From positions 744,001 to 808,000 of the forward strand of contig JAQGEQ010000287.1 of assembly GCA_034620365.1 (NCBI GenBank): 64,000 nucleotides of DNA, in the 5' to 3' direction. This stretch comes from Pegea sp. RAD2-039 (Eukaryota; Chordata; Thaliacea; Salpida; Salpidae). Shown piece after piece: positions 8,801-46,091 of this stretch. A model generated the notes under the pieces. The model saw only the letters and a program-made list of their open reading frames with translations. It ran no database searches and had not been told where the DNA came from. Numbering within the stretch: position 1 is the first letter of the stretch; each line of letters opens with the position of its first letter. The translations under genes and the position numbers were made by a program.

Positions 8801-8845
8801 TAACAGTGGCAGCGGGAGTCTTGGAAGATTTGAATTTGCTTTCAT
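2859..8845 (-). CDS. ChAT: Choline O-acetyltransferase (13 coding exons)
   Basis: ChAT makes acetylcholine from acetyl-CoA and choline in the cytosol of cholinergic nerve endings; it belongs to the carnitine/choline acyltransferase family. Coding exons, 5' to 3' on the minus strand: about 8845-8639, 8478-8360, 8164-8111, 7619-7418, 7363-7186, 7079-6932, 5760-5638, 5356-5258, 4765-4610, 4253-4115, 3813-3703, 3252-3163 and 3098-2859 (stop TGA). They join in frame to about 621 residues, close to the short mammalian form as I recall it. Recognisable segments are [54 protein letters not shown], the active-site region YEHSVSEG (His about 325), [20 protein letters not shown] and the terminal [17 protein letters not shown]. 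The start is taken as the ATG directly after a splice acceptor at 8846. The VAChT gene lies inside the intron upstream of this ATG. Confidence 0.95.
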
Positions 8846-11105: not shown

Positions 11106-12701
11106 TCAAGAATCTATCAGAACTGCTTTAGGTGAGCTAGTATCTGGTGAGCTTAAATTTTCGACTATTATGGTCGTTTTTCGATTAGACTTTCTACCAG
11201 GTCGAGGTCGAGGTGAAAAACTTGTTTCATTAATTTTATTTTTCATCGAAGATGATAAAGGACTCAAATTTGGATAAGAAGTTTGCTCTGGGGATCCAAC
11301 TAAAGAACTGTTCACCCTTGAATCTAGATTTTCAGTGGTGGAAAAGGGCGAAGGATCAAGAAGTAATCGTTGTTCTCCACAATCATCTCGCTTCCAATCA
11401 TAAACATCACGTAAGAGAAGCAGCAGAGGAGCAAACATAATATTAGCTAATCCAATTCCAACGTTCATTTTAAGATAACCAATAGCACGGACGATTTCTC
11501 CCGCTAAAATCGGACCAAGACTGTAAGCGACAGAATAAGAAATGTCTGCAATAGCGTACACGGACCCATATACACTTGTGTGCCGGACATCGACGATAAA
11601 AGCCAGAGTAGGTAGCAATGCGGTATCGATAAGCGCAATCCCGAAGCACAGAGTTGCTACTGGAAGAATAATCATTCCATAAGAGTGACAAGTTGGGACT
11701 GCTGCCGTCGACACGCCGATGACAACCAATCCAATTGCTCCATACAGCCATTGAAAGCGCGCGTATTTTTGGGATAATCGAACTGTGAGGTAAACACCAA
11801 TGATGTGGGGCACAAACGCAGGAAGCCAAATTAGTCCAATTTGCCATTTTTTTGCTTTCATTGTTTCTTCCATCCACTGAGCGATTGTTGGTTCGAGAAA
11901 CGCGAGAGGGAAGTTTGCTGCAGCTAGTGACGCGGCTATCACAGCGATATAGGGATCAAGAAATAGTTTGTGTATTGGTGTTCCTTTCGGCTTTTCACTG
12001 TTTGCTTCTTTTTCTTCTTTAGGAGCAACAAAAAGAAGAAAGGAAGTATTAGTGAGACATATAAATGCCAAAATGAGAAAAGGCCATTCTCGACCAGCAA
12101 ACTGAAATAAAACTCCTCCAAAGGGAGGAGCAACAAGACTACCAAAAGATATAAATGCCAAAGCAACTCCTAGAGCTTCTGAACGTTCGGACTCATCTTG
12201 AAAACGATCAGCAATCAATCCCAAAGAAGCTGTGTCAGCAAGAGCGGATCCAATTCCTTGAAAACTTCGTGCGACAAAAAGAAATGCAAACGAGGTAGCA
12301 CAAGCGAAGAGTGTCGTGGACACAAACATGGTAAGTAGTCCCAGAACAAGTGGCCGCACGTACCCGACCCTATCGATGTACACTCCAGTAAATGGATTAG
12401 CGCAGAGCTGGACTATTGCTTTGGAAGCAAATAAAAATCCAGTCATTGTCTCTCGAGAAGCAAGTTGACTTTCAGGAACAACAGTTCCATTTGGTTTCTT
12501 AAAGTACTCAGTTATGATTGGTACTATGACCATATACAACATATTATCCAACAAGAGGGTGATGGACGCTATTAATAGAACCAACCGTTGCTGGCAACGT
12601 TGACCACTCAAATGTTCACGAATTGGAGCTAGCTTGCAATTGAATTGTAGTAAAGCTTGTTGTCTAAACTCATTGAAATTTGTTAGAGCTTTTTCCATCA
12701 T
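11106..12701 (-). CDS. VAChT: Vesicular acetylcholine transporter, intronless coding region
   Basis: A 12-helix major-facilitator proton antiporter (SLC18 family) that loads acetylcholine into synaptic vesicles; orthologue of C. elegans UNC-17. The single exon encodes 531 residues from MMEKALTNF. The open frame extends 23 codons further upstream, but a splice acceptor (TTTGCAG at about 12751) interrupts that part, so the second-in-frame ATG at 12701 is preferred. Family marks: LLLDNMLYMVIVPI in helix 1, a lumenal loop with the N-glycosylation site NGT, DRVGY after helix 2, GIGSALADTASLGLIADRF in helices 4-5 and YGSVYAIADISYSVAYSLGP in helix 10. The C-tail has EQRLLLDPSP, an acidic dileucine motif like the one that directs VAChT endocytosis. 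The whole gene lies in ChAT intron 1 on the same strand, so it is likely co-regulated with ChAT. Confidence 0.96.
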   Translation of the reverse strand: MMEKALTNFNEFRQQALLQFNCKLAPIREHLSGQRCQQRLVLLIASITLLLDNMLYMVIVPIITEYFKKPNGTVVPESQLASRETMTGFLFASKAIVQLCANPFTGVYIDRVGYVRPLVLGLLTMFVSTTLFACATSFAFLFVARSFQGIGSALADTASLGLIADRFQDESERSEALGVALAFISFGSLVAPPFGGVLFQFAGREWPFLILAFICLTNTSFLLFVAPKEEKEANSEKPKGTPIHKLFLDPYIAVIAASLAAANFPLAFLEPTIAQWMEETMKAKKWQIGLIWLPAFVPHIIGVYLTVRLSQKYARFQWLYGAIGLVVIGVSTAAVPTCHSYGMIILPVATLCFGIALIDTALLPTLAFIVDVRHTSVYGSVYAIADISYSVAYSLGPILAGEIVRAIGYLKMNVGIGLANIMFAPLLLLLRDVYDWKRDDCGEQRLLLDPSPFSTTENLDSRVNSSLVGSPEQTSYPNLSPLSSSMKNKINETSFSPRPRPGRKSNRKTTIIVENLSSPDTSSPKAVLIDS

Positions 12702-12750
12702 ACTGTTGGTTGGCTGACTGTTTGTTGATTGAATGCTAGCCAACCTGGAT
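12702..12750 (-). other. VAChT: VAChT 5' UTR portion of the coding exon
   Basis: The sequence between the acceptor at about 12751 and the chosen ATG is open and in frame but lacks family homology. It is read as 5' untranslated sequence, joined by splicing to the upstream common exon. If it were instead translated, the start would lie in a different upstream exon. Confidence 0.6.
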
Positions 12751-13675
12751 CTGCAAATTGGTAAAAACACAAATCAACTTTTTATCATTTTGTATTTGAG
12801 TTCTTGGCATTAGTTGTCATTTTGTTTTGAAACTTTTTTGGCGACTGATTTGTGTTTTAACCAGTATGCAGACCCTCCGGTAGTATTTTTGATCTTTTTA
12901 TATCTTACCAAAGTTGAAAGCAATCAAACTTTATTTTAAATAATTAGTGAATTTGTCGCTTGTATCTTTTCAATTACGCCAATAAAAGTTTTAGAAAACT
13001 CATTTTATACAGCTTCTACAATAAAATTGATTAATTGTAGAACAATATTTTTAAATCTGCAGTTAAACCTAAGAAGGACAAGGATTTAAAATCCATAAAA
13101 TAGGTTTGAAGCTTGTGGTTAACAGATAGGAGGTAATCAATAAGTCGGAGCTTATTGATTCGTTAATTTAAACTGTTTTTCTAATAACATCCTTCATATC
13201 TATGCCAGTTTTCTCGTAGATTCAAACAACAAACAGCAAAAAATATTCTGTTACGACAGAATATTGAAATGTAAATTAATTTGGACAAAGAAACAACTAC
13301 TACAGATTCATTCGCTATATTTTGCTATCTATATTTGTTATTGATTAGTACAGTCCATCAACATTTTATATGTTACGTCTTAAAATAGAGTTAAATTAAA
13401 AATTATTTTGTAAGTCAGCATATTTTTTGAATAACTTTTTTTATTGTTGTAATTGATTGTATAAAGAAATTTAAAAACATGTAAGTATTATCATCAAATA
13501 CTTATAAAACAATTAATCATTTTTAACTTAATCATATTCGAAGTTATTTTACTTTTTTACAATTAATTTCAACCAAAACTTCTGGTTATAAATTTATAAA
13601 GTTGTTATACAATTAAAAGTAGTAAAATATTTTTACAAAAAATAAAGTTACTAAATTCTTTATACAAAAACTTAC
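12751..13675 (-). other. Intron between common cholinergic exon and VAChT exon
   Basis: About 0.9 kb of AT-rich sequence between a strong donor (AAG/GTAAGT at 13676/13675) and the VAChT acceptor at 12751. I see no coding sequence in it. ChAT splicing would skip from the same donor to 8845, removing VAChT as part of a 4.8 kb intron. Confidence 0.6.
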
Positions 13676-25048: not shown

Positions 25049-26503
25049 TTAAGGATTAATATCTTTTATAACAGAATCCTGCCGACATTGCATATTACAA
25101 GAGTAAGACGCTGACGAAATTAAGGTATTGCCTTCTTTAGTTAACTCGTAGAACAAATCCTCTTCTTCAAGAGGTTTTCTGGTGTTGAGTGAACTGTTTA
25201 TAGGAGAATCCAGCAAAATTGTTAATTGAGAGTCTGTTCAAAATAATTTATCTTTATTTCAGTAGTTGTACAAATTAATTTTGAAGAAGTAAAACAATTT
25301 CTTAGTAGATATCGATCTAAAAAACATTTGCTAAAAGTAAATTGGATTATCGGTAAAATATCAGAAATATTCAACATTTTGAGAACAGCACTATGAATCA
25401 ACTTTCAAAGAATAGATCAATGTATTGTTGTTAGCTCTATGACTGGTTTTATTTTATGGTATTTTAACATTAGAAGAATTTTTAATCTACTTTTTATTGG
25501 AGATTAAATCAACCCGAATGTTGTCAAACCTCTTTGAATTTAATATTTCTTATTTATGGGAAAATCACCATATTTATAATTAGTAAAAAAATGACTTTTA
25601 TACATGACTTCGTGAGACTCGTAAATATGTTTCTAAACTTTTAACAATTAAATTAGATGGTTTACAATGTTACCTGAATTACGAAATTAAGTAACTTGTA
25701 AATTTATTCGATGATTAATTGAATATTTGAAGTATGAAAAGGGTAAAGTAAGTTGAACTGATATTTTGAAAATATTTATGTGAAAAGCTTTACGTAATAA
25801 CAACAAATGAAATCATAAGCTTGAAAATAAGTAGTTTTCAGTTGGATTTAGCTAGATTTGAAAAATATGATGTTTAGCTGAACAAAATGATTTGTTTTGA
25901 GACGTTTGACTATTTGTAAACGCAAATATTGTAATTTTGTAATATTTGCGAGGGTAATTATTTCGTTAAAAGTTTGATTCAAACTAATTTCAATCGAAGT
26001 AAAATATAAATGAAAATTTTTGCCCATTAAGATTATCGCTGGAAAACCCCTCACACTTTCAAATTATTACTAAATAAAATAATAATTATGCGAATAAGTT
26101 GTTTTTAACTAACCTTTGTTTTGGTTAACTTTTTGAGAAATCGACAGCTTTGAATGAAGTTTTAGTTGTTCTTCTTCACTAGGAACTACCAAAAATAAAG
26201 AAAGTTTTAGAAGCATTTGTCAAAAAAAAAAGGTTATGTTCAATTCCTTTAATTAGTTTCTTTATCTTCTATCTATTAATTTTTATAGAAAGTCTTCATA
26301 TAGCTACAATTTACTTGTTTGAATTGAAAGTGGAATACTTCCAAAGGTCTCAGAACGATTCTTATAATCGTAAGCAAAGATCACAAACGTATACCATTGC
26401 CCTGGTTGCAATGACCTCATGGTTGCTTGCGAGCTCTTGCTCATAGTAGCATAAGGTTTAGTAATTGCTGGACCAGATGTAAAAATTTTATAGGTGTTAG
26501 CGC
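25049..26503 (-). other. FN3 gene, last FN3 half and C-terminal tail
   Basis: Domain 28 is encoded by exons 26630-26556 and 26503-26315 (ending FGSIPLSIQT). The tail exons 26185-26114 and 25233-25049 add about 85 residues, including PSEEEQLKLHSKLSISQKVN and SASYSCNMQCRQDSV, ending KDINP. The tail is polar and has no membrane helix. A minus-strand AATAAA about 20 bp beyond the stop (near 25022-25027) may be the poly(A) signal. The last intron is about 0.9 kb. Confidence 0.8.
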
Positions 26504-29500
26504 CTACAAAATAAAGTTATCTTAGTATAACTGCCAAGTTTAAAATTCAGTTTACCTTTTACTTCTTTCCATTTAATTGAAATCTCTTCTGATGTAATAG
26601 CTTTGATTACAGCTTGAACCTTATCAGGAACTACACAAGATAATGTAAAGATTACAAGAATTTGTCGAAAAATATAAACTTATTTTCTTAATTAAAAGAT
26701 CACTTAGGTGTGTGAAGGTAAAACTCACGAGTTGTTTCCTTTAAGGAAATATCAAGAGGGCTTATTCGTTCTTTATCATCAACTGATCTGACGAAGAATA
26801 CATAAGATGTTCCAGGGGCTAGCTCCGAAAAAGCTCCGTTTGAAGATGAGCTGATTGTTTTATCAACAATTACATCATCTTTTTGCACTTCTAATACATA
26901 GGATGCTGCACCTAAAATTAATACAGTGTGCTATTACTTTGTTATCAAATGTATATTATGAATTACCATCAACAGGCTCCCATTCAAGAGCTATAGACAT
27001 GGAGTCAACTTGAGCTACATTAAGTCCGGTCGGAGCAGGAAGAAGGGTCTTGATATAAGTCGATTTGGAGTTTTTGATACTTTTATCGCCTCTGGGACCG
27101 ATTGATTGTAATGAGACTTCATAAGTTTTGCCGGCTTCCAGCAGATTGACATTTGCAAAGCTTTGATCAGTTTCAATTTTACTTAATAAATCTCCATCAG
27201 AAGAGAACACAAATACAATGTAATTAATTGCACCTGAAAATAACATTGAGTAAAAATCTTGCTAAAATTTTGAGATTGATTAGAAGAATTATTTCGAAAA
27301 TTGTATATGAACTCTAAAAAACTAAAACTTTAAGTTTGAAACGATGTAAATGCTGATGGCCTACTTGGTTCTGCTTTCCATTCTACAGCAGCTGATTTTT
27401 CAGTAACACTAATAGCTTCAGGAGCATCAGGAGTATTAGGTTCTAAAATGAAAAAGCCCCTTTAAATTACTAATTTCGAATATAAATAATTGTTTACTTT
27501 AAAGTGAATATAATTTCAATTCATCATATGCAGTACGAAAAATTAAGAAGAATAACTACTGGAAATTTTAGCATTTTATTGTTATTCATTTGATACTTTT
27601 AAAACGCTGTTCACAAATCTGGTTTTTCTAATAAGGGCCATTATTTTTAGACCAAACCATGTCATCAAATATAAGCTGGTCGACTTATTAGATTATTATA
27701 ATTTACAAATTGCAGATTATTCAATTTTAATTATTAGATTACTAAAAGCAAATAAAAAAGAAGCTATCATTAATTTTTGAAACTTTAATATTAAACTGAA
27801 CTATTTACATACAAATTAATCATAGATTATTTTTCTGCTAACTTGTAAAAACTTCCAAAGACTTTGAAGGACTACTATATAGACCAGAACTGCTAATTGA
27901 TTGCACAGAAACCAAGTAGTCTGTAGAGGGTTCTAATCCTTCGATGCTGAATTCAGTGTTTTTAGTTTTGAAGTCATTTGAATAGTTCTCAGTGGAATTA
28001 CTCCGAATTGAAAGCGAATAATAAATTGCTCCTACATAAGAAAACTTTGCTTTGAGTTTAAATTCGTGATGACAAAATTATAAATAAGAAAAGAAAATTT
28101 TTACTATTCTATTGATAATAAACCTCTAATCATACATCAAAGCATTAACAAACATGCCTTCAATAAACGACCATTCGATACTAATAGCTTCTGAAGTGAC
28201 AAAAACAGCTTCAAGTTGGCTTGGAGGTTCTAGACGAGCTTGTAATTCAATTGGCTGAGATCGTTCAACGCTCAAATCTCCTTTGGGACCAACAGATTGT
28301 ATTGTAACTTCATATTTTGCTCCTGGTAGCAAGGGCTCAATTGTAATAGAGCTGTTATTTGTTTCGAAACGATTTATGAGGTTTTCGTCGAGGTGAGTTA
28401 CATAAATAATGTATTTAGCAGCACCTGAAAAAATAAACAGTTGTTGATACAGTTCTAATAATTAAGTTTGTTTACTCACTATCTTGTAGATTCCAAGATA
28501 TTAGCGCAGTATTTATTGTGATATCAGTTGCCTTGATTGCTGTAGGTAGAGTAGGTCCTAAAATAAATCTTCATTTGATATATAGCACACAAAAATACCA
28601 TTAACTTACTAGTTATTACTTCAAAAGGAGCTGAAAAAGAGCTTTTAAAATTTCTATGATCAAGAGATTGAACAAAGATTGTGTAGATCTCAGATGGGTT
28701 CAAAGCCTCCAAAGTGAATCTATTATCTTCAGTTAGACCAATATCTTTCATGCTTGAACTGCTCTTCTCCCAGATAGAAATTGAGTAAGCAATAGCTCCT
28801 AAAGTCATTTCAAAGTTTAGTTACTTTTTCTATAAAGCTAATAACTTATCAAGTTTATGAACTACAAACCTTCGACTGGAACCCATTTTAATTCGATAAA
28901 ATCCGACCCAGTACTAACAGCTTCCAAGTTATCAGGAGCTAGTAATCTTGTTTCTATTATCAGTGGAAGTGAAGGACTGACACTAAGATCGCCTTGAGGT
29001 CCAACTGATTGGACAGTGACCTTGTACCTAGTTCCAGGTAGTAATGAATTTGCGACTTCAAAAGTTTCATTTGTTTCTAATCGACTAACTAAATCTCCAA
29101 ATGTAGTACGAATGTAAATTATATAACTTTTTTCACCTAAAAATACGATTTAGTAAATAAAAAAACAATTTCATTGTTATTAAAGCTTAGTGGTTCTCAC
29201 TTTCATTCGGTATCCATTTTATGCTGACAGTTTTGTTTGAAATTTCGACTATGATAGGAGGGTTTGGTATAGTAGGTGCTAAATTAAAAAATATTTTCAA
29301 TAGATATTTTCAATAGAAAGAATCATATAAAGTCTTACAATAGGTACTAGATAACATGAAATTTGAAATAATAATAAACTGTTTCAGAAAGTTTTTTGGA
29401 TCACAAGTTATGTACAATGCAAATAGGAATCAATATTGAACAACATTATTGTAGATTGCTCAAAAATCTAATCTTACTAGTAGCAATCGATATCTCAGCT

Positions 29501-32500
29501 TTTTCAACTAAAGTATGCATATTGTCACAAACTTAAATTATAAATGTGGTATGGTAACCTTTTGTTTCTCTATTCAAATCCATCAAAAATATCAACTAGT
29601 ATTATATGGATGAACAGTTAAAAAAATGTTAAGTTTTTAAGCAAATTTTCTAAATCTAGCTTATTTTTATAACCTATTTTTTATTGAGATTAAATTTACC
29701 TGTTATTACATCCAAGGGTTTACTTGGATCACTATATAATCCATTCTTATCTATGCATCGAACAGTAAATGAATATACTTTTGAAGGAAGCAGCTTATTT
29801 AGTCTAAAGCTTGAAATGCTTGTTTTAGATTCAGGTTCCTTGATTAGATCTGATTCTTCATTTGATGAAGCAGAGACCTCATATAACACAGAACCTAAAT
29901 AATTCAAGTATATTTGTAAAATTCTTTGTTAGTTACAAATAACAGTATATGATAAACGACAAACCTTCGACTGGAACCCATTTTAATTCGATAAAATCCG
30001 ACCCAGTACTAACAGCTTCCAAGTTATCAGGAGCTAGTAATCTTGTTTCTATTATCAGTGGAAGTGAAGGACTGACACTAAGATCGCCTTGAGGTCCAAC
30101 TGATTGGACAGTGACCTCGTACCTAGTTCCAGGTAGTAATGAATTTGCTACTTCAAAAGTTTCATTTGTTTCTAATCGACTAACTAAATCTCCAAATGTA
30201 GTACGAATGTAAATTATATAACTTTTTTCACCTAAAAATATTTTTATAAATTAAAACAAATTTTTTGATATTTTGTATTTATGGTATAAAGTTCCTCTTA
30301 TATGAACTATTTACTTAAATCAATAATCTATATAATAAATGATAGAGTACAAAAGACACTCTACAACTTATATCTCTTACTTTCATCTCCTTTCCATTCA
30401 AAGTTGGCTGAATCATTTGAAATTTCAACAAGTTTAACTTCAGTAGGAATTGTAGGCTCTGAAATTACGTTTATTAAATATGATTTCATTGATGAAGTCT
30501 TACAAAAGTTCAAATAATTAAGAATAAAAAATCAAAGATTGATTGATATACTTCTAGAGCTAGCTTAGTGTTGCTTACTTGTTATAAAGTCTACAATTTC
30601 AGAAGATTCACTATACAAGCCATTACTGCCAACAGATTGAATAGAAATTGAATAAACTGTTGAAGCTTTTAAACTTTTTAAAGTAATTTGATTTTCTTGA
30701 GATTTAAATCTTAATTCATCAAGTAAATCAACCAAGTCTCCATTCCACAATGAAATAGCATAGGAAGATGCTCCTAATAAATATCTTTCATAAATAAGTT
30801 TATTTTGAAACATTCATTATAGAAAATTACCAACTTTTCTCACAACTATTTGGAACTTAATTGTAAAAAAGCACAAACCTTCGACTGAATTCCATTTAAG
30901 TTCTATAAAGTTTGAACCAACATCAAGACTTTCCAAATCATTAGGAGCAGGTAACCTTGTTTCTATTATTAGTGGTAGAGGGGAACTAATACTAAGATCT
31001 CCTTGAGGCCCAACAGACTGGATCGTAATTTGATAAGTGGTTCCAGGCGACAGAATATCGACAAAAAGCGATGATTTATTTGTCTTAAAGCTACCAAGTA
31101 AGTTGTCGTCAAGCTCAAAAACATAAACTATATAGCTTGAAGCACCTGTAATGAGAATATTTGGTTAAAAATTTTAAAATTTGTGGAAATATTAAGCTTG
31201 TGGTAAAAATGTTTGTACTTGTCTCAGGCCGCCAATTTAGTTGCACTGTCTTCTTTGTTATACTGCTTGCTGTGAGCTCTACCGGGAAATTTGGTTCTGT
31301 AAAAATATTAAACAAAAAATTAAATTGCTTGATGACAATTTATATTTGTGATGTATTCAACTTTCAATATCTTTTTAATGTTTTTTTTTCTGCTATAATG
31401 TGTAATAAGACCGAAGTTTACATACAGAATATTTTTTTAATACTAAGTTCAGCTTATTGTTAATTGAGAGAAATGATATCGATCAGTTTGTATCATACAA
31501 AGGTTGTAATTCAAACAATTTTATAAATATAATTATTCTTTTTATTTTGTAAACTTGTAAGAGAAAAATTTGAAAATTGTAGATTTGAAAATATTTATAC
31601 TAACTTGTAAAGGCTGTGAAAATAGTCGACATTCTACTTATTCTATCTAAACTGTCAACTGCTTGTATTGAAATAGCAACTTTTTGTGAAGGTTGAAGAT
31701 TCTGGATTATAAATGTAGATTTTTCACTTTCAAAAATATTATTTGTGTCATTTGTGTCTAAATCTTGGGTTTCATTTGTTGAGATCAAATAATATTCAGC
31801 TCCTGAAAACCAAAATAGGTTTTTAAAACAATTGAAGGAATTTACTACAAGCAATGCTTACCGCTAACATCAGGCCAGACAAACTCAATGAAGCTTGTAT
31901 TAGATTCTAAAACACTGATGTTTTCTGGAGGTATTAAAACAGTTTGGACAATAGCAGAAGAAGATGAATCGACGCTAACGTCTCCACGCGGCCCCACTGA
32001 TTGAAGTGAGAAGTCATAAACTACTCCCGGCTCCAAGGATTCTACAATTGATCTTGTGGATGTTACTTCAATGATCCTTTGAAGTCTTTCATCTGAGCTT
32101 CTCACTGTTAAGTAGTAACTTGAAGCACCTGGAGGTGTTTAAGAGAGTTTAGTTTGAAACACCTTTTCACTTTATACTTTTACTTTTTTCAGGGCTCCAT
32201 TGTAAAGTCACAGATGTTTCGGTTATATTTGAAGCTGTTGGTGCTTGTGGGGTTAGAGGCTCTGAAATCATTCAAAAAAGATAGGATTTAGATTTTTGAT
32301 ACTTTTAATATTTGCTTGAAGTTCTATTAATACGAGGTAAACATTTTTGACAAATTATTTCTTTATCTACATACAACAAAAATAGTTAAAATGGAATTAG
32401 CTTTTTTTTGTTATAAAATGGTTTTAAATTTGAATTAGAAGATACATTTTAAATGAGAGTAAACGTAGTTCTTCTGACAAGTTGATTTATTACAATATTT

Positions 32501-35500
32501 TTTTGGTTTCAGCAGATTTATTTTCCAATTTTTGTAAAGATTGTGGTACATTTTGCTACAATCACTGCTTATTGTTTCAAATTAACAAGTAAAAACATTT
32601 AAGATGAAAAACAAGTTTTATTTTGCAGATGATATTGTTTTCGTAAATAGTTTCTGACTTGTCATGAAGTAAAGGACATCAGTAGCTTCACTGTATAGCT
32701 CAGTAGGACCAACAGCTTGAACAGTGACTGAATATTCTTTTGAAGGTTCTAAGAAATCCAAAGTGAAAGTTGTGTTCTCGGTATCAAAACGATTATGGTC
32801 GTGGTCACTCGTCTGATTGCCTGTCCGAAACTCAATTGAGTAGTAGGATACATCTGTGATTGATTAATCTTTTGATTATGATTGATGTTAACCACTATGA
32901 TAAGCTTACCTCTAACTGATTCCCAACTTAAGGAGCTTGTATCAGATGTAATTTCAAAAGCTACGAAATTCAAAGGAGCTTTTGGAGCTAAAAAAGAGTT
33001 GAAGTTAAAATTTTAGTTCAGCTTGAAACACCTGAATAATACCAAGTATATTTTTGATAATTAAGTTTTTATATTTATTTTTAGTTTAGAAATTTTTAAG
33101 AAACCTGTTCGAGCTGATATGACGTCACTGCCACGTGAATTCATTTCATCAGAAATGTCAAACGAATAAATTGTGATGTTGTATTCGTAGTTGGCGGCTA
33201 AATTATCGAACTGAAGTTGAGTACCTTCAGTTATGTTTTCTTGCTTTGTATCAATACTTTGAAGAACAATCTTGTAAGCACTTGCACCTAAAAACCATCT
33301 CAATAAATACAATGAACAAATATCATTTCAGGTTTAAGTTCTGCGTGATTATTGAAAGGTTCTTAGGTCTTATGAGCCAAATTAGAAAGTAAACAAACCT
33401 TGAGCAGGCTTCCATTCGATCAGGAATGAGCTTTCAGTTTCGTTCGACAACACAATCTCAGAAGGAGGGGAAGGAACTATAAAATTTATAGAATATTGAT
33501 AAGTTTTCACCAATTCTGAAGTTTTGAATTAGAAAATTTATCAAGTGGCTTAAAATTTAACAAATTTTATTTCATAATCGTAATTGACCTTTCATATACA
33601 ACTGATTAACTTTTTAACCTGACTATTTATTTCTAGATTGAAATATTTTATCTTTAATAAATTTAACTCTAAGTGACATCTTATATTGAACCAGAGTTCT
33701 TATCTTCAAAAATATTGAAGGCTACGTTGTCAATTTAAAGTAAATTAACTGGTTATGAAAACCATGCAAACGTTAAATCAGGGGTAGATACTAATTTTCT
33801 TTCTGATCTTCAGTCAAATATTAATGTAACTAAATGTCAACTATGTTGAAGGAGGTAGAAATGAAGTTTTAAACAAGTTTTAAGGTTTAAAAAGTTGATG
33901 TGTTAATATCCATGTAACCAAGATAAAACTTTATAAATTTGTCTAATGTGGGTTTTTCTTGCATCGCTTAGTAAAATGATCCTAATACCTTGCTAGCGTA
34001 TAGGAATAAAAGTGAACAATCATTTCATTGTAAACCTACATATCCTGTTTGTAGCTTTTGAAGCTAAGTGTTTCGTAAAATCTTTAAAAGCTAAACTTTG
34101 TTATATTATTTCTCAGACAGCATTCTATATTAAAGCAGATCATAATCTTTGTATTTATTGTGCACCAAGTTTTCTTAGAATTTAAAGCTATCAATTATCT
34201 ATTTATTATGGTTACATCTAACCTCAAACTAATTCGAAATAAAACATTTTTACAGCTAATTACTAGAACCAACGAGAATTAACTACTTTTAACGGTCTTC
34301 TTTTATCAGAGAGATATTAGTGATATAAATTTGCGTACATCAACACAACAATTAATTATTTAAGAAGCTTTAAAGGTTCATGTACTGAGTTGATCCATTT
34401 TTTAACTAGGAACATCTACCAGCTTTGTCAATATTTTTGAATAATTGTTTTGATCAAGTAAACCTTTACTATATGTTTGGTGCAGAAAATTTCAAAGAAA
34501 ATCAATGCAGATTTAATTATTTAGATTCTATAAAGTAAGACGCATGACGTTCACTTGTATGAATTGAGAAAAGTTATTTCTTAACATAAATGTTTATTTT
34601 TTGAGTTTAAAGTTTTATTTATAGCTATACTAAATGCCAGTTTCGTTTGAGCTGTTAATAGTTTATTAATTTGTGTCATATTTAAAACTATAGAAAAATT
34701 GTATCAAAAAACATGTTTTCTGATTTATAATAGATTCATATACTGCTTCTTTAAATCATAAGTTTCATTTTACTCACTAGTAGCTCCATAGATGACTGCT
34801 GGTAGTTTGCTTTTGACATTTTCGTCTCCCAATGTCCATAGCTCAAATTTGTATTCAGTACCAGGCTCTAGAATATCTATTTGGATGTTAGTTTCATCAG
34901 TTAACAGTTCAGGAAGCTCAAGATCATTTAAATATGCAGCCAACAGATAAGATGCTGCTCCTGAAAATTAAAACTTGGGTTTCACTGCCTGTTACATGTT
35001 TTAATTGAAATAATAAAGCTGGTAAACAGACCTTTTACTGTTGTCCAAGTTAACTTAGCTGACGTTTCCGAAATTGACATGATGTTGAAATTCGAAACCG
35101 GTTCCGTTATAGTTTGGATGAAAGTGGCGTTTGACACTGAGGGCTCTTTATCAGATAATTTGCTGAATGCAGTTATAATTGCACTATATCTAGTTCCAGG
35201 AACAAGACCGTCAATTGTTATTGGTGGGCTTGAAATCTTATCACTAATTTTAAACGTCCCATTCAACTCCTCCAATTGCCATTCATAGTTCTCTGAAGCT
35301 ATCAGTAAAACAAAGAAAAGTTTTGTTTAAAAAACGATTATCTATTTTAGGACAATTCGAAAAAATGCTTTTACCTGAAGTGATTTTCCATGTGAAGGTA
35401 ACACTAGTTGTATTTATGCTGAGTACATCAGGCGGCAATTGAATAAAATCTGAGATAAAAGGTTGAAAAGTTAAATGAATTAGTTTAAATTGTCAATGAT

Positions 35501-38500
35501 TTAAATTGTAATTTCAGAAACAAGTGTGAACTTTATCACTAAAATCATATTCACCGTTAATGAAAAGTCATTGTACAGTTTTTAGTTTAAAAACAGTTTA
35601 AAAAATCTAATAACGAGGCTTTGTTTGCGATACAAAAACCTCATATATGATCTATTTAAAAACCAGACGAGATAAATCTTATCAATTTTGCTCACTTGTT
35701 GCAAAAGCTTGTTTTAAGCTCCGTTCACTTAAGGTTCCTTCAAAGTTAACGCTTTGCACCGTACAGATGTAATGAATATTTGGTTCAAGATTGGCAAGAA
35801 ATAAGAAATTAGAATCTACTTTCAGCTCTCGTTTATGTGTTTTCCTCGACCAATCAACCCATTCCAGATTAACATAATAACCTTTACTACCTTTAAAGAT
35901 AATAACTCTGGTTCAATATAAGATGTCATTTAGAATTAAATTTAGTAAAGATAAAATATTTCAATCTAGAAATAAAAAGTCAAAATTGATGATTAATTTG
36001 TTGCAAAATCAGATAAAGCAATTTAACCTTTGACTTCGTCCCAATGAGCCTCTGCTGCCTTTTCATTGACTTCTTGAATCATCAAGTTTGTTGGAGGAGG
36101 TAATGCTGGAAAATTGATCAATTACTTAATCGCTTTTTAATTTGAATTTTCGAAATTTAAAAACCGAAGTGGTTAGATCAATATAACGCTTTTTTATATA
36201 AAGATCTTTTGTATTAAAGGAAAACTAAAAGGTTAAAATAATTTATAAGAACTTATTTTGTGCTGTTAATTTAAATTTAAATTGTTTTTAATGTAACTCA
36301 ATTTTAACAACTTAAATCTACTTTACTAAGGAGAAAAAACTGGTGAATTGAAAAGACTTACCAGTAACTATAACAAGCTTTTCGCTTGGTTCTGATTTAC
36401 TGATTTTGCCGACTGCTTGAAGTGTAATATTATAAGCTGAATTTGGATTAAGATTTGAAATAAGAATTGATGGTAATATAGTTTCTTTTTTTATGAATTT
36501 TTCTCCATTTTCAACATAGATTTCATATGACTTTGCACCTAAGTCATAATAAAAAAAGTTTTTAAGTCCAACAATTTACCATTTAATTGTAAGGTTGTGT
36601 AAAAAACTGTATAAAACTAGTTATATTACATTCTTTTTATCATAAAAATCATTTGAATTTTAAAAACTTAAATTTTTTAGGTAAAGTTAGTGTTTTCGAC
36701 ACAATACTTTTAAGTAAAGGCAAAACTTTACATTCTAAATCAATAAGTCTCAAAATTAATAAAAGGTTTTTACATATAAGAAGTTGGACTAATTTAGCTT
36801 TAACTTTCTGAATTAAAGCTAGATTGCCGGAAGTTATACGATGAAACTATATATGTTACTTTATTGGCTTTAAATCTTTTGGATTCTGGTCACTTAAACG
36901 TTTAATGTAACAAATTCAAACCTCCTTTAGTGGAAAGTTATCTATTTTAAGGAATTCTTGAAAAATTGTTTAAAAATTATTTATATTTAAATACATTATC
37001 TATTTATATCTTAAATTTCGTTGATAATACATGATTTAAATTGTTAAACAGCAGATTTTATGCTTTTATGCTTGATGTTCTTTACATCAATAAATTTGTG
37101 TCTCGGCTATTTTAAAAGCTAAATCCTGAGGTTAAGAACTGTTGTCATAATATCTAAATCATTAGAATTGTATTAATCTTTTTGCGAAATAACTTTGTTG
37201 TAATTACAAAAACAGATAATTAAATTATTTTACAAGTTAAAAATGATCAAAATTTGAGAAGAATACAATAGTGGTTTTGTTTCAAAAAAGCAGTTTACTT
37301 TTGAAGCTAGCTGTATTTGTTTATAAAATATCTATTTCCTACGATAATCTTATCACGATTAACAAATTTCAAAATAAAATAAACTCGTAAAATATGCTTA
37401 AACTATTCAAAAACAATTGTTAAACTAACAAAGCTGTTAAAATTAAACTAATTGAAACTAGCAATCAATCATGTTTAAGAGTAATTTAATGAAACAGTAC
37501 CTGTTACTGGATTCCATTTCAAGTCGATAGTTTGTGATGTAATACGAACAATCTCAATGTTTGAAGGGGGTAACGGATCTGAAAGCAAAATATCAATGAA
37601 GTAACCGAAATAATGACGTCATCATAATTTTATCAAATAATTTATATTTAATTTTTTATGTAAGCTTCGAAATTCTATATAAATTGCTCTTTATATGTTT
37701 TACTATTTTAGAACAAGTTCCACATAACTAGAAAGAAGGCTATTTCGTGAAACTTTTACAGCGTTATCTGCAAAGTTGCTAAAGTATATAAATTTTAGTT
37801 GATTGGGTTAGCATATGGTAACTATACTCTAATTATTTAAAGAGTTTTTGTTTTGAGAGTTTGATTAGTTTTTTAAAAGTTGAAAATGATTATATTAAAA
37901 CTATAATAAATTGAACTTTAGAATGAATTATATAAAAGTGGGAAATAAAAACGTTTTTCTAGCATTAGAAAGGTGTTTTTGAGGTGCGTAAACAATCTCA
38001 TTCAAATATGAGGACTTTTTACTTGTTGGTAGAAACAAGTAAATTTTATACATCTTTACCACCAAGTAGTGGTTCAATTAACTGGTTTTTTAGGTTTAAG
38101 CTTTCAAAATATCATTGTGCTAACAAAGACATTTTAGTTCATTTTCGAAAATGTATGCACGCAAACGGTTTACTGCATATAGTTGTGTGTCTATCTAAAA
38201 CTTTAGACAATCACTTTATATGGTAAGTTGTTTTAGGTTTGGTAATATCAGTAAGAAATTGATATGTCCAGGTGCTAAACCGATCCAAAAAAAGCTATAT
38301 TAAATTTTTGCGGTTTGCTGGAGATCAAAACCAACGTTACAGGTTTTATAAATTTTATAAACCGAATTTTTTTCTTACATAAGCAGCTAGCTGCTACAAT
38401 AATATCTAAATTAATTAACAAAACTCAGATACACTTCAATCTTAAATAATTGAACAATTAAAATCAAATATTTAAGATCTTATTTACTACGTTTTATTAG

Positions 38501-41500
38501 AAAAAATAAATGAACTTAAAGTCATTGAAAAAATGTAATTATTTACTTGTAATCACTGAAATACTAGAACTCCATCCTCCTGTGCGATTAAATGAAGAAG
38601 AAGCTTGAACCTTGATTGAATATTTTGTTCCAGATTTGAGCTCATCAACTTGAACTTGATTTGTGTCTACAAGACGTTCGTCTTGTACAATTTCATTTTC
38701 ATCATCTCGACTTTGAATCATGATTTTGTATGTGGAAGCACCTAATAAATAAAAACTAATGAAATGCAAAATGTAGAATCAAACCATTACAAACCATTTA
38801 CTACATTCCATCTAAGAAAAATATCATTTGCTTGAATGAAAAAAGCTTTTAGCTTTTCAACTCGTGCTAAACCTAAAGTAAATGTTTTTTAATCAAACTG
38901 AATTCAGATGTTTCTTGCATTGTTGCACCTGTTTGGGTGTATAATATTGGGCTGGTTTGGTTAATTGAATGGTATCTGTTATCATTTTTCACGTGAATTG
39001 AATATACTTTTCCAGGTTTTAGGTTTTTTAGTAACACTTCGGTTTTTCGAATCTTATTTATAATCCAAGTTCTTGTTGTGACGTTGCTAATAATTTCAGA
39101 TAATATCATCTGAAAGCTTTTCACGCCTGGCAAAAGTCAATTTCCAAGTTTGTTTCAAGCCTTACAAATGAAAATGTCAATCAAACCTGGAACTGGTGCC
39201 CATTGTAGCTTTAAAAAGGATTTAGAAAAATCGACAACTTTTGGTTTAGTCGGCGGTGGTGGACCTGGAAATCAAAGGTTCAATTTAAAAAACTAGCAGC
39301 TTGAAAGCAGCTTAAAAAGCAATATTTTTCTCATTTTTAAAGATGAAACGCAATTACGCCTGAAGCCACTTACGTGTCTCCATACTAATCTTATTCGAAG
39401 ACCGGCTTTCCTCTTTGTTAAAGTTTACGGCGTGAACTCTAACTGAATATAAGTTTCCAGGCTCAAAACCACCGATTGTAGTTTGGTTTGTCCCATGTAC
39501 ATAGAAACTTTTTGTGGTATTTCTATTTGTTGTGTTTGTATATTCAGCATCGAACACAAATCGGTAACCCATTGCACCTACACTCAAAACAAATATAGAT
39601 TATCTGTATTTGTTCAGAATCGATAATTATTTGAAATATATTTTTAATTTCAAAATTCAAGTTTTTTTGCCAAAATTTTTGAACTTCTTTTTATGAAAAG
39701 TTAAGATTTCTAGTTATTGGAAACTGACCTTGAACAACAGAACATTCTACCAGGAAAGTTGTTGAGTTTTCGGAATTAATTTTTAGGCTTCGTGGCGGAA
39801 GTGGGACTGAAAAAATGCGGTAAATGTTAAATAAAGAAATTAGGATAGAAGCTGTCATCAATTACTTGTTTGAAAACCGAAATTTTCAGCATGATCTGTA
39901 TTTAGTTCCGATCTTACACCCATTGGAAAAATTGAAATAGAATAGATTCCTCCAGGCGTGAGTCTATTTAATTTCAGTTTTGTTTCTTTTGTTTTATATT
40001 GAGCAACATTCTTTCCATGAGTTGAAACCAAAACAAGGTAGATGAAAACTCCTATACATGTTTTTGTGAAATGATTGGAATATTTAAAAATAAATCAAAA
40101 AGTTACCTTCTTTTGGCTCCCACTCAATTCGTGCGCTGTACTCCGATAGTTCTTTAACATACGCGTTTAACTCTGAATCAGGTACTAAAATAAAAACAAA
40201 ATTACAAACAAGATACCAAGCTACTTCTCCAACTTACACGTTGTTACCCACACTGGTTCACTAAACTTGCTAGACCTTCCCATACTTCCAATTGATCTTA
40301 TTTTAAACACAAAAGGACTGGCAGGCTGAAGATCATTCATTTCAAGCACTGGTTCGGTTGTATTAGTAAGGATTTTGAAGTCTTCTGTAACAGGATCGCC
40401 CCTAAAAACTTCTTCATATATCTCATAGCTAACCACATAAGAACGTAGGTACAGCTCGTAACCAACAGCTCCTAATAAGCAGTTTCTTGAAGTTTGTTTT
40501 GTATTATTTTATTGATTTGATAATTACCAAAAACTTTTTCCCACTCTAACTTGATATTTGTTGTTGTGGACGAAGTTTTTATACTTCGCGGAGCTTCTGG
40601 AGCTTTATAGAAATAAAATTAACAAAATGATTGAAAATTAAATAAAAAAAATTATTTGGATATTTTAAAAATGTGAAATTCTTACTTGTGGCAACACGAA
40701 TAGGAAACGACCTTCCGATTGATTCTTTACCAAATTCACCGAGAGATTTAACATCAAGCTCATAAAGAGATCCTGGCTGAAGTTTGGAAAAGTTTGCTTT
40801 TAATAAACCAGTGAAGTCAACAAATGGGACGCCAAGTCCGTCTCCGAAGACTTTTCTGACTGATACTTTATAGTTGACTGCATCTGTTGACGATCCGTTG
40901 TTAATCTAAGCAGCTGGGAGAAATATTTCCCTACTTTCCATTCGCCCCCAGTTGATCCTAATGCTGGTTTCTGTTGCCTCTATAACTCGAATTATCTTAG
41001 GATTCTCAGGAGCTATAAAAGAGTTGTAGATATTAACTTTGTCACTGAAAATAGCAGCTCAAATCTATTAATCATAAAAACTCAAGTATAAGTAGAAAGC
41101 TGTCAATTTTGTTTCAAACCTTTCGCAATAAAAACCAGACCGCCAATTTTACTGGAACGATTGTAAAAGTTGATAGATTGACCGCTGACTTCGTATTCAT
41201 TTAGAGGAGATACATTTGTGATGTACAAAAATGTTTCTGTAATATTTTCATAACTTTCTTCTTCTTTAGTCATCTTATTTTTCACAAAAATATTATATCG
41301 AGATGATCCTGTTAAAGTTAGTTCATTAATAAGATGTAGATTTATAATATTAACTATCAGTAATAAATTCATCACCTTTAGTAGCATTCCATACAACTTT
41401 TGTTGCAGTTTGGTTTACTTCTTGAATTTCTAATACAGGTGGCATTGATTCTAAGTAAGAAGAATGCTTTAAAACCAATAGAAAATAAAAATGACTCTAA

Positions 41501-44500
41501 ATCTCATCACTAACCTGTCATAAAAGGAGTAGCATCCAGCTGACCGATTTCTTTCTTCGAAGCATAAATATTACTCAATTTTACGTAATAAATGGTCCCA
41601 GCGGTGAGATTCTTTAATGCAACAGACTGACCCATAGCTACACGCGTTAAAACATCCTGCCAAAAAAACTTTAAGCCACAGAAATTTTGTAAGAATTGAT
41701 TTTCAAACTTTAGGGTCATCAGCTGCTGCAGCAATCACATAATTTCTTCCTCCTTGTAAAAGACGGTCCCATCTAATAACTGCAGTAGACTGGGTGACTT
41801 CAGATTCATTAATTTCAATTTTGGGGGGTTTGATTCCTAAAAAAAAATTAATTATTTTGTGACTAGTTGTTAATTTGTTTTTAATCTATGAGTTTATTAA
41901 ATCTAAATCGATAAGCAATCAAAGTATTTAAAGTCAACACTTTTGCACCTATTATTATTATTATTATTATTATGCCTAAAATAAATATAAGAAAAATTTA
42001 TGATTTGTAAAAGTGCAATTTATAGTAAGTTTTCAAATATAATTATGAAAATTAAAAATACTTAGAGATACTTTGAACATACATAAATCTAGTCGAGTTT
42101 TGATTGATAAATTTATATAATTAAAAGATATAGTTCACCTGTTGTTAATAATAAAGCTGCTTCTGGACCTGGCTTCTTATTGGAGTCTAATGGCGAAACA
42201 TAAATAAAGTATTCTTGTGCAGGTTTAAGACCATCGAAAGTAACGCTTGAAGAGGAAGCGTTTAATAACTGTGTCCGCCTCTGCCGAATTCCTCTCTGTT
42301 TCAACTGTAGATACATTTTAAGTTTTTGTTATAACAGCTGCACAAATAATTTAACTATCATAATTGAAGCGCTGTAGCCACTTCAAACACTTCTTCATCT
42401 TTTGCAAAATTTAATAGATTTTTAAATAAAGATTAAACCACTTTTTATCGAAGTTTATTTATATATAACATCAATTATTTAATGCAATTCAAACCAACAA
42501 ATTACCTACTTATTAAAATATTTAGATGATTACTTAACAACCTCAATAAGCTAAAATTTAATTTAACTTTCAAACTGACCATTGCTCGATAACCCTTTGC
42601 ATGAGGCTGAAGTTTCCAGGTTACACTGATTGATTTGTGAGTGATCTTTTCTTTTTTTAGACGAGGCGCAGCAAGTGCTGAATGTATTACCGTATTAAAA
42701 AATGGAAATTAAAATGACTTTTTTGAGATTATGAAGATGCTGGTTACAACTTGTTTACAGTGATTTTAAGTCTATAAGCTGTTTGATACCACAATGATAT
42801 ATAAAACAGTTAAGGTTATCCACTACATTAGCTACGTAAGTCACTCTAAGTATTAAGGTTTATTTATGGTGTTTAAAAGGTAATGATAAAAGCAAAACTT
42901 TAGTGTTTTAGTTTAAAGTTTTTCAACTTACGTGGTTCGCAAACAACTTGAATCGTAGAACGAAGTTTATTTTTTAAATCAGAGTATCTCCTAGTGAACA
43001 TTGTGTGTTTTGATGTAGGCTCCGAAGATATAGCAAGAATTTGTGGTACTCGATAATCTAAAAAAAAGAATCAATAAGAAATAATTTGGGGTTTTTTTAT
43101 GTAAAATTTATTTACACTTGACGGCAATCAACACCAGACGACATTGTGTTTTCATGTTATCTGCAATTGTCTCGTATTCACCCTTAAATGGAAAACCGGT
43201 GATTAAGACACAAACTGCCGGAACAGATCGTTTTCCTAGATACAATAAAACAACTTTCTTTAACTCATAGGTTAAATAGATATACAATTAAGTGTGACGT
43301 AATCATGTTTTGCAAAACGTGATTATTTGTTCAAGAAAATTAGAAAAATCGAAAACATTTTGTTTGAAGAAGATGAACTAGGTATACAAAAGTATTTTGA
43401 ACAATTGAAACTTTTTATAGTTTGAAATATATTTTTTTATTGTCTACTCATCTTATTTTTATTCAAAAAATCAATAAATTATAATGAAAGTTTTGTTTTA
43501 GATTTACAGATGTTTGACAATAAACAGGAAACTAATTTGGATTTATTAAAACGTAATTTTAAGATCATCATAATACCGAATCCTGATGTGAAGAAGTTGT
43601 CGATGGCATACTGCATAAATTTTTGTGACCACATCCCAAATGAATCTTGATTTTTAATGCTGCTAATTGCATTCTTGGCCGATTGGAGACTTTGTGGTTC
43701 TGCTAGGGTTTGATAAGTATCAACGTATTTACCATAACTGCAAAATAATAGTGATTTGACATAATAAACCATATTAAAATTTGTTTTATAGATATTGTGT
43801 AATACTACGCCAGAATTTGTATTCTAAACGCTTTAGGGTAAATTTTAAACTCAAGGAAACTTCTACAAAAAATCCGGTGTTTTGAAATAGAATCATTTTA
43901 TTTCTACATATCGTTAGCAGTTTCATAGCATAAACAACCTTCATAATATTTTTACATAAATTAATCTATCATCTACTTGTATGAGATTAATAGGAAGTAT
44001 TGTTTTATATTAATTCATCTTTTTTGGCAGATATACGAAATAAAAGCAATTTTTAAAGAAAAACAAAAAAGAATTTTTAAAGAAAGGCTAAATAAGAATT
44101 TTAGGAATGAAATTCCAAAATATTTTATTATTGCTGATTTATCATTAAAATTAAACCTTCAAAAACTTAAATTATTTGAAACGTAGTTTCGAACACATAA
44201 GTTGAAAATAATTTGTATGAGTAATGTTGTAGTTTTAATCACACTATAATGCTTTTGCAATATTCTGTAATTTTCTTGTAGAATTCTTTATTTATTCATT
44301 TTTCAATTTATTTTTGAAAGCATGAAGCAACTAAAAATCATATATTTTTTTATAGGCCCTGTTAATAAAGAATAATTTGATATAAGCCTCTTAGAGTATG
44401 CATTAGTATCTTTATCTTATTTTGTATCATCAAAAATAGATTTTGTGGCTTAGTCTGAAATAATTTTACCTGCCATTGGTAAAAAAACCTGCCAATAAGT

Positions 44501-46091
44501 ATTTTCAAATAATATCAACTGTAAATAGGGCTGTAATACATATTTAAGTTTTTAATAAATTAAATGTTAACTTAATTTGAATTTTTAAACATACATACAG
44601 AAAAATTACAAACAATTTCAGTTCAAAAAACTGTAAGTTTTTTCAATCAGTTTGCTTCAGGCAAAATAAAGTTTGGTAAAAATTGTGTAAAATTAATTTT
44701 CATTTATAATTTACAACCTGCGCTGGACACATTAAAAAGATTTTTAATATCTTGAAAATTAATTCAATCTTTTTAATTAAATACTTGAGGGTTGAACGTT
44801 TTTAGAAAACAGCGGTTTCGGATTATTATAATCTTATTATCGGAAATCTTTTCAGTTAAATCTGAATTTTCTGTAAAAATATTTCGAACAGAATTTATAT
44901 ATTTGCATTATATAAACTCACATTTTATGTTGAATGTTATGTTATGTGCATAGTTTGTTTTATCTTTTTATATAAATATAGGGAACAGTAACTTCTATCT
45001 TTTTTTAAATTAGTGTTTCATATAAAAAAATCTAACATTTGTGATTTATCAAAATGAAAATATAAATTGTTAAAATAGTTAAAGTCATTAAGACGTTTAG
45101 TAATGTCAAGATTTGGTTTCACTTAACTTTTATTAGTTTAATCTTAAAATTATGACAAGCGTTTCAGAATACTTTACATTTTTAAATTTCTAGATAATAA
45201 AACATTTTAATTTCAAAAATATTTAACAAAATTTGATAAACACTTGAATAAAGATTTGCATTTGTTTTTTCTCATGCGTAGAATGTTATACATATAGATA
45301 TGCTTTAGGGCTTAAGTGTATGATTTATACTTGCTTAAGTAAAACGATATGTTTAGTAATTCTTTTGTAACGGTCTCAGAGGTATATAGATTCAACCGTT
45401 TAGTATAGATATGTAGAAAAAGGTTTTTTGATGGATATAATCTTTTTTGTCACAAAAAGACAAATTTAGGATTTATTACTCGAAATTAAGAAATATTTTA
45501 CAACTGATCGCCTTAAACTTTATTAAAAAAATTTTAAGTTCAGAAAGAAAATAAAATTCTTTTGTATTTCTACAGCGAAGTTCTAATATTAACTATCAAG
45601 TATGTACTTATCTTACCTCGATACTGACACATGAGTTCCGTGTTCGTTTATGCTGAATTTATCAACCAAACCAGTAAGAAACTCTTTTACATATGAAATG
45701 TCTTCCTCCGAAACAAAAGTTGCAGCTTCTACCATCAGATAAAGATCTAACTTTTCTGCTCCACAGTTTACTAAAATACAATTTTTATTGAATACAGACT
45801 TTTATTTTAATTTCAATAAACTCTGAGAAACAAGTCCTTGGCAATTCAAATTTTATTTTTAAATTGTGTTTAATGTTTATTTCTCAACACATAAAGATAA
45901 TTTTTTTGAAACTTGTTCAAGATTGTTATTACATCTTATTATAATAAAAGTTTCAATGTCTAACTTAATATGTAATTTTTACAGTTATGAATAATCTTAC
46001 TGGTTTTAGGTTTCTTTCGATTTCTTCTTGCAGAAACAGAAGAAAATGAAACCAAGATGACAAGAATAGCTACAACAACCTCCCTATGCAT
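25049..46091 (-). CDS. Large secreted protein: signal peptide, vWA domain, 28 FN3 domains
   Basis: Probably an extracellular-matrix adhesion protein of about 2,700 residues. I joined 56 exons. Exons 1-5 (signal peptide and vWA): 46091-46001, 45770-45617, 43737-43577, 43235-43116, 43057-42932. The next 49 exons (42677 down to 26315) encode the FN3 domains. The last two are 26185-26114 and 25233-25049 (stop TAA). Nearly all FN3 introns are phase 1 and cut each domain between strands C and C', so exons carry half-domains. No transmembrane helix, GPI signal or collagen repeat was found; the tail holds two cysteines (SCNMQC) and is acidic. Collagens XII/XIV and some related proteins combine vWA with FN3, but this one lacks collagen. 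The assignment as one gene rests on unbroken frame and phase; it could be two genes if a promoter lies in a long intron. Confidence 0.88.
27085..27093 (-). other. RGD tripeptide in the FG loop of FN3 domain 26
   Basis: The long exon reads SLQSIGPRGDKSIKNS, with RGD in the same place as in domain 16. The four long exons between them carry QGD (three) or KGD (one). Confidence 0.8.
28870..29136 (-). repeat. Near-identical FN3 exon, copy A
   Basis: This 267-bp exon (second half of domain 22, first half of 23) differs from the exon at 29965-30231 at only two positions that I can find: one changes Lys to Glu in the TRY(K/E)VTVQ segment, the other is silent. The bases at the exon edges (AAACC and CTAAAAATA) match, but the introns beyond are unrelated. 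Confidence 0.95.
29965..30231 (-). repeat. Near-identical FN3 exon, copy B
   Basis: Partner of 28870-29136, offset 1,095 bp. It carries the second half of domain 20 and the first half of domain 21. A third long exon, 30879-31145, is clearly related but much more diverged, which dates the sharing between A and B as recent. Confidence 0.95.
31980..31988 (-). other. RGD tripeptide in the FG loop of FN3 domain 16
   Basis: The long exon reads SLQSVGPRGDVSVDSS. In the FN3 fold the F strand is followed by the FG loop, where fibronectin domain 10 carries its integrin-binding RGD. The position here is equivalent by eye. Confidence 0.8.
32659..42677 (-). other. FN3 gene, FN3 domains 1-15
   Basis: Half-domain exons (upper bound first): 42677-42580, 42304-42139, 41836-41709, 41656-41515, 41450-41376, 41308-41120, 41012-40935, 40883-40686, 40602-40528, 40471-40238, 40184-40107, 40051-39866, 39806-39729, 39577-39374, 39264-39187, 39126-38929, 38872-38795, 38741-38547, 37578-37501, 36538-36362, 36105-36028, 35890-35696, 35449-35375, 35298-35032, 34960-34778, 33476-33399, 33287-33105, 32987-32910, 32853-32659. 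Each first half has the FN3 tryptophan (for example LEWEKV, FLIEWKPA); each second half has the L-PG-Y motif (LQPGSLYELDV, LEPGTEYKFEL). These domains are diverged from each other and mostly lack the two-domain exon pattern, except the fused exon 35298-35032 joining domains 12 and 13. Introns of 0.9-1.3 kb at about 33.5-34.8, 36.5-37.5 and 37.6-38.5 kb show nothing else coding. Confidence 0.85.
41951..41973. repeat. (ATT)n microsatellite in an FN3-gene intron
   Basis: About eight uninterrupted ATT units within the intron between FN3 domain 1 and 2 exons. It is probably length-variable. Confidence 0.95.
42932..46091 (-). other. FN3 gene, exons 1-5: signal peptide and vWA domain
   Basis: Translation starts MHREVVVAILVILVSF, a hydrophobic signal peptide ending near VSARRNRKK. 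A von Willebrand A domain follows: first strand KLDLYLMVEAATF, helix DISYVKEFLTGLVDKF, strand GTHVSVSRYGKYV, a central strand KRSVPAVCVLITGF, then LVLIAVKYYRVPQILAI and the closing QVVCEP. The usual DxSxS metal-ion site is absent: the strand reads DLYLMVEAA, so metal-dependent ligand binding is doubtful. The cysteine pair NCG at the start and VCEP at the end fits the disulphide that closes many vWA domains. Intron 2 is about 1.9 kb. Confidence 0.85.

Follow-up and report, generated by a model that had tools for sequence, protein, structure and literature searches.

A predicted salp vWA-FN3 protein carries six xGD loops in the register of the fibronectin domain 10 RGD

In the genome of the salp Pegea sp. 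RAD2-039 (assembly GCA_034620365.1; 105.7 Mb in 387 contigs) we identified a gene for a predicted 2,818-aa protein with a von Willebrand factor A (vWA)-like domain and 28 fibronectin type III (FN3) domains. Six of the FN3 domains present the sequence QS[V/I]GPxGDxS where fibronectin domain 10 carries its integrin-binding RGD. The gene lies on the minus strand of a 64,000-nucleotide stretch (hereafter the window; contig JAQGEQ010000287.1, positions 744,001 to 808,000, G+C about 28%), and coordinates are window positions. The loop is conserved among the repeats and, at the level of a DNA pattern, is confined to this gene. We put the chances about even that the hairpin between strands F and G is an integrin adhesion loop, acting chiefly through its RGD and KGD copies. 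Judged from the sequence, a multivalent adhesion surface is plausible.

Six xGD loops in a tandem repeat

The repeat unit consists of two FN3 domains distributed over three exons of 78, 267, and 183 to 198 bp, and there are six tandem copies. The 78-bp exon encodes strands A and B of the first domain, the 267-bp exon strands C to G of the first domain plus A and B of the second, and the last exon the rest of the second domain. We found the motif in the 267-bp exon of all six units (exons 36, 39, 42, 45, 48, and 51), which together span 26,967 (lower boundary of exon 51) to 32,128 (upper boundary of exon 36). This is as claimed by the first-pass annotation, a model's reading of the letters alone, and its assignment of RGD to domains 16 and 26, KGD to 24, and QGD to 18, 20, and 22 can now be given coordinates. 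Along the protein, all on the minus strand, x is R in D16 (exon 36, 31862..32128, encoding D16 strands C to G and D17 strands A and B; RGD at 31980-31988), Q in D18 (exon 39, 30879..31145; QGD at 30997-31005), Q in D20 (exon 42, 29965..30231; QGD at 30083-30091), Q in D22 (exon 45, 28870..29136; QGD at 28988-28996), K in D24 (exon 48, 28158..28424; KGD at 28276-28284), and R in D26 (exon 51, 26967..27233; RGD at 27085-27093).

The loop is confined to the first domain of each pair, that is 6 of the 12 domains D16 to D27 and 6 of 28 overall. The statement that every repeat unit has it therefore holds for the first domains of the six units but not for their second domains, none of which (0/6) has GD at the F-G register, nor for a seventh 267-bp exon (exon 29, 35032..35298, minus strand), which encodes the end of D12 and the start of D13 and lacks xGD. 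Two further tripeptides occur outside the F-G loop. An RGD in D05 (40395-40403; exon 15, 40238..40471, minus strand) sits in an insert after strand C, and a KGD at 30,385-30,393 lies in D20, between its strands B and C.

The register was supported by homology and by structure prediction. Fibronectin was the top phmmer match to a query of D16 to D20 (E=5e-13), and the alignment to 1fnf pairs the QGD of D20 with the domain 10 RGD of fibronectin. For AlphaFold2, we submitted the translations of exon 51 and exon 36 separately, in both cases with an alignment of the seven long exons. The best models reached a mean predicted local distance difference test (pLDDT) score of 84.5 (exon 51) and 83.3 (exon 36), and in both, the RGD (residues 47-49) falls between strands at residues 36-44 and 58-61, with one bridge residue, number 50. 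Thus the proposed FG-loop position stands, and the best models predict that GD is not in a buried strand. The first Foldseek row was fibronectin 10-12 (E=8e-3), among many FN3 structures. An RGD or an accepted variant between F and G at the fibronectin domain 10 register, our mark of an RGD-type FN3 domain, occurs in D16, D26, and D24. To our knowledge, QGD is neither an accepted RGD variant nor a known integrin motif.

The motif is more frequent than expected and restricted to one gene

Given its composition, the protein would be expected to contain 0.17 RGD and 5.1 GD; it contains 3 and 14. The Poisson probability of at least three RGD is 7e-4, although homology links two of the three. Genome-wide, a degenerate DNA pattern for Q-S-[V/I]-G-P-x-G-D has six matches, all in this gene, and the reversed pattern has one; the pattern tolerates a small number of alternative residues at positions two and three and would miss copies split by an intron.

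As controls we used 102 distinct F-G segments from other FN3 genes in the same genome: 48 from a vWA-FN3 paralogue on contig C114, 13 from a gene on contig C6, and a further 41 from 32 loci, of which 30 belong to a contig C1 FN3 array whose frames are very long. We take the C1 array to be titin- or twitchin-like, hence not expected to meet an integrin. Only 2 of the 102 segments have GD at the register (C114, 1/48; C6, 0/13; the C1-dominated set, 1/41), and RGD or KGD was found at the register in none of the 102. The register counts were read from printed segments; a script that searched more widely than the register counted 1, 1, and 2. Segments with more than one loop gap were dropped, and of the 110 alignments from a joint run of the C114 and C6 sets, 49 and 13 were retained when the two were run separately.

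Selection maintains the loop, and one cassette was recently copied

Each of the six first domains has 88 residues, and the alignment of the six is ungapped. Of its columns, 16 are invariant: 7 of the 10 in the QSxGPxGDxS stretch and 9 of the 78 elsewhere (Fisher p=1.6e-4, an optimistic value as the stretch was picked after the motif was seen; the seven turn residues alone give p=0.019). The kept core is G-P-x-G-D, in which D is invariant (6/6) and x is limited to R, K, and Q; besides x, V/I is the only other change in the core. D20 and D22 aside, the first domains are 33 to 44% identical in amino acids and 47 to 57% in nucleotides. Among the five rows left when D22 is omitted, all seven invariant loop residues are written with two or three codons. 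Because the residues are invariant and their codons varied, the loop is under selection: for the set as a whole, what keeps it is, on codon evidence, purifying selection and not recent copying. Gene conversion or recent copying as the general cause of the conservation is rejected on the same synonymous differences.

One pair shows the opposite pattern. Exons 42 and 45 are identical at 265 of 267 positions, and the identity extends just 9 and 6 bases outside the exon. The near-identical blocks occupy 28864-29145 and 29959-30240. The exons neighboring the pair are 59% and 44% identical, and aligned parts of the neighboring introns match at 42/60 and 33/70 positions. Identity that ends so near the splice sites points to exon-precise recent copying or conversion of the QGD cassette of D20 and D22. 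As these are near copies, the three QGD loops amount to about two independent observations, and the six loops to about five states. In a nucleotide tree, D20 and D22 group firmly (99/99) and D16 and D26 weakly (77/90), with no resolution among the others; given this weak resolution, the tree does not decide between an R-first and a Q-first history. The arginine codons of the two RGD loops differ (CGT in D16, AGA in D26). Separately, we considered whether the assembly holds an allelic or haplotype copy of the locus and rejected this, as a DNA search with 270 bases around exon 51 gave one match, to itself.

Gene model and protein architecture

The gene model (25049..46091, minus strand, running from 46,091 down to 25,049) has 56 exons and forms one open frame of 2,818 codons plus a stop. 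It was assembled by hand, with splice sites and frame checked by script, and is a prediction from sequence alone. AG precedes each of exons 2 to 56, and GT follows 54 of the 55 donor exons; the exception is exon 48, the KGD exon, which is followed by a GC-AG intron. Introns are in phase 1 in 52 of 55 cases, an arrangement that would let most exons be skipped without a frameshift.

The predicted domain order is a signal peptide, a vWA-like domain, 28 FN3 domains, and a short C-terminal tail. A Pfam scan covered all 2,818 residues in three pieces, with E values up to 0.001. The fn3 family (PF00041) scored 144.3, 164.9, and 290.2 bits in the three pieces (cut-off 25), and VWA matched at E=3e-16 (60.6 bits); the remaining matches were weaker and mostly to FN3- or Ig-like families. 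The 28 FN3 domains were delimited by exon borders, and their numbering, D01 to D28, agrees with the domain numbers of the first-pass annotation.

Exon 1 (46001..46091, minus strand) encodes the start codon and the putative signal peptide (MHREVVVAILVILVSFSSVSA...), which contains the highest hydropathy windows of the whole protein. No membrane span was seen, since past residue 30 no 19-residue window has a mean hydropathy above 1.24; the top value after the signal peptide is 1.23. The product is probably a large secreted matrix protein. Exons 2 to 5 (42932..45770, minus strand) encode the vWA-like domain, which matches Pfam VWA and lacks the canonical DxSxS, the usual metal-site consensus of vWA domains. 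At the place of this consensus (45617-45770) is DLYLMVEAAT, and the metal site of the vWA-like domain has therefore probably been lost. The vWA-like domain of the C114 paralogue also departs from DxSxS, with DFYFLLETSA. Exon 56 (25049..25233, minus strand) encodes the C-terminal tail, with two cysteines (aa 2803 and 2807), and the stop codon, about 20 bases past which is an AATAAA.

Integrin binding and its alternatives

The predicted protein has a vWA-like head and, behind it, a rod made of 28 FN3 domains, in which the first domain of each repeat unit presents QSVGPxGDxS as a predicted exposed hairpin. If this hairpin is an aspartate-centered adhesion loop, its constant Asp would bind the metal ion of the integrin beta subunit, and R or K (D16, D26, and D24) would contact the alpha subunit. 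The QGD copies would be weak or specialized sites. The 267-bp exon is in phase 1 at both ends and spans strands C to G of one domain and A and B of the next, so splicing could tune the number of loops: if one such exon were skipped, precisely one xGD loop would be lost, and what remained would still be an intact hybrid FN3 domain. A receptor could be present, as the same genome has integrin beta exons in five clusters and matches to the alpha family at four loci. A search with an alpha propeller returned further alpha-like exons on contigs C19, C215, and C284.

Several observations weigh against integrin binding. The Arg of RGD is the residue that contacts the alpha subunit, and x, which takes its place here, varies more than any other position in the core, with R retained in only 2 of 6 loops and QGD in 3 of 6. 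Glycine is common in this part of FN3 FG loops (40 of the 41 C1-control loops), so the G requires no integrin, and an Asp in a loop can be structural. Each model represents an exon fragment, from which the A and B strands of the domain itself are missing, and models other than the best fall to pLDDT 72.4 (exon 51) and 65.6 (exon 36), with four of five for exon 36 under 70. On the receptor side, two alpha chains were compared: L072 matches alpha-6, a laminin type, best and alpha-V next, and L074 matches alpha-V best. PDB alpha chains differ in length, so best matches leave both L072 and L074 untyped. DDSYLGY is a motif of RGD-binding integrin alpha chains; as an exact pattern it had no match in the genome, in a search that would miss variants and copies split by introns. 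The proposal that the array provides graded affinity was not supported, given the variable Arg position and the three QGD loops, and we found no literature that unites QGD, RGD, KGD, and integrin.

The alternative that survives best, which we consider a serious candidate though somewhat improbable, is that GPxGD serves as a tight F-G hairpin or packs on a neighboring domain. The x residue would then face solvent and tolerate polar side chains, and the two RGD would be by-products of drift among Q, K, and R. This would account for x being the most variable position and for the glycine shared with other FN3 domains. It would also account for a conserved set that includes Q, S, G, and P and the S after GDx, beyond what an integrin would read, and the CGT and AGA codons of the two arginines are compatible with separate origins. 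Yet other FN3 domains build this turn differently, with GD at the register in none of the six second domains and in one of the 48 C114 segments, and x is restricted to R, K, and Q. The best models, moreover, place GD outside the long strands.

Extending the integrin reading, a vWA-FN3 protein might have arrived independently at the fibronectin domain 10 loop and multiplied it as a skippable cassette, with splicing tuning both the number of loops and their kind (R, K, or Q). We regard this fuller scenario as unlikely.

Binding to a partner other than an integrin, such as another matrix protein, a glycan, or a neighboring copy of the same protein during rod assembly, seems improbable. Conservation of the whole 10-residue loop would suit any protein contact, and the QGD copies, which correspond to no integrin motif that we know of and to no literature found joining them with RGD, KGD, and integrin, fit such a partner. 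However, this reading would leave the fibronectin domain 10 register and the two RGD copies to chance, and none of the analyses indicated a candidate partner. Plain inheritance, without selection, from one ancestral unit bearing GPxGD draws on the single tandem series that holds all six loops and on the almost identical D20/D22 exon, and it is very improbable given the divergence of the other units and the synonymous codon differences at constant residues.

Comparison with known proteins

Among FN3 ligands, those well known for an RGD in the F-G loop are fibronectin, which has one RGD at this loop, and tenascin. The salp domains share with fibronectin domain 10 the fold and the register, with nine residues from the F-strand Tyr to x. 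They differ in being six xGD loops rather than one and in belonging to a protein with a vWA-like head. No fibronectin type I or type II domain was found among the Pfam matches.

Tenascins offer the closest precedent for a series of such loops. The third FN3 domain of tenascin-C has an F-G-loop RGD, for which natural variants are KGD, KGE, and RGE (available text of PMC1578592 and PMC11401434). The same sources place the origin of tenascin in the chordate lineage. The available text of PMC11401434 describes RGD in the FG loops of FN3 domains 2, 5, and 33 of 35 in the lancelet B. floridae, FG-loop RGD in ten of 41 FN3 domains in B. belcheri, and RGD plus KGD in FG loops of B. lanceolatum, as well as KGD at the aligned place in a tenascin-like protein of the hemichordate Saccoglossus. 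According to the portion of PMC1578592 available, pufferfish tenascin-C genes have KGD, RGD, or KGE at this loop, and the Ciona tenascin has RGE. Serial RGD and KGD loops in lancelet tenascins mean that this kind of arrangement was already known. QGD, present in three loops here, is not among the lancelet variants reported in the available text of PMC11401434. No EGF-like or fibrinogen-like domain, by which we would assign a protein to the tenascins, was among the Pfam matches.

A vWA domain plus serial FN3 domains in a matrix protein is also the arrangement of the fibril-associated collagens with interrupted triple helices (FACIT) XII, XIV, and XX. The salp protein shares this combination, and a collagen XX FN3 chain was among its PDB matches. 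It differs in having one vWA-like domain, N-terminal, and a non-collagenous tail; no collagen domain, our requirement for a FACIT assignment, was among the Pfam matches. In a paper on collagen XII, as far as the available text goes, RGD in FN3 domains is mentioned in general terms only. By the domain tests made, the protein is neither a tenascin, a fibronectin, nor a collagen. A receptor tyrosine phosphatase was also rejected, as the genome's 90 phosphatase matches all lie off this contig, the protein itself has none, and no membrane span was seen. The protein was not named among the literature matches listed for RGD and FG loops, vWA-FN3 proteins, tenascin, collagen XII, and the matrisome.

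The C114 paralogue (C114:66001-105400) has vWA-like exons related to those of this gene (best E=4e-5, 33% identity), and its FN3 array is likewise long. It differs at the loop, where its single GD among 48 is an NGD and there is no RGD or KGD. Some of its repeated exons (L064 and L065) are near-identical.

If the loops do bind integrins, the same solution would be in use in a protein of different architecture. The natural variation at x, which is R, K, or Q in six copies of one protein that keep the Asp constant, would then offer a test of which part of the tripeptide matters.

Other features of the window

Two other regions of the window were noted. Minus-strand open reading frames at 7181-12773 presumably encode a vesicular acetylcholine transporter-like protein (one 555-aa frame) followed by a choline acetyltransferase-like protein; the animal cholinergic locus holds genes for these two proteins together. 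Plus-strand open reading frames at 61228-63775 resemble what we take to be a reverse transcriptase of the long interspersed nuclear element (LINE) type.

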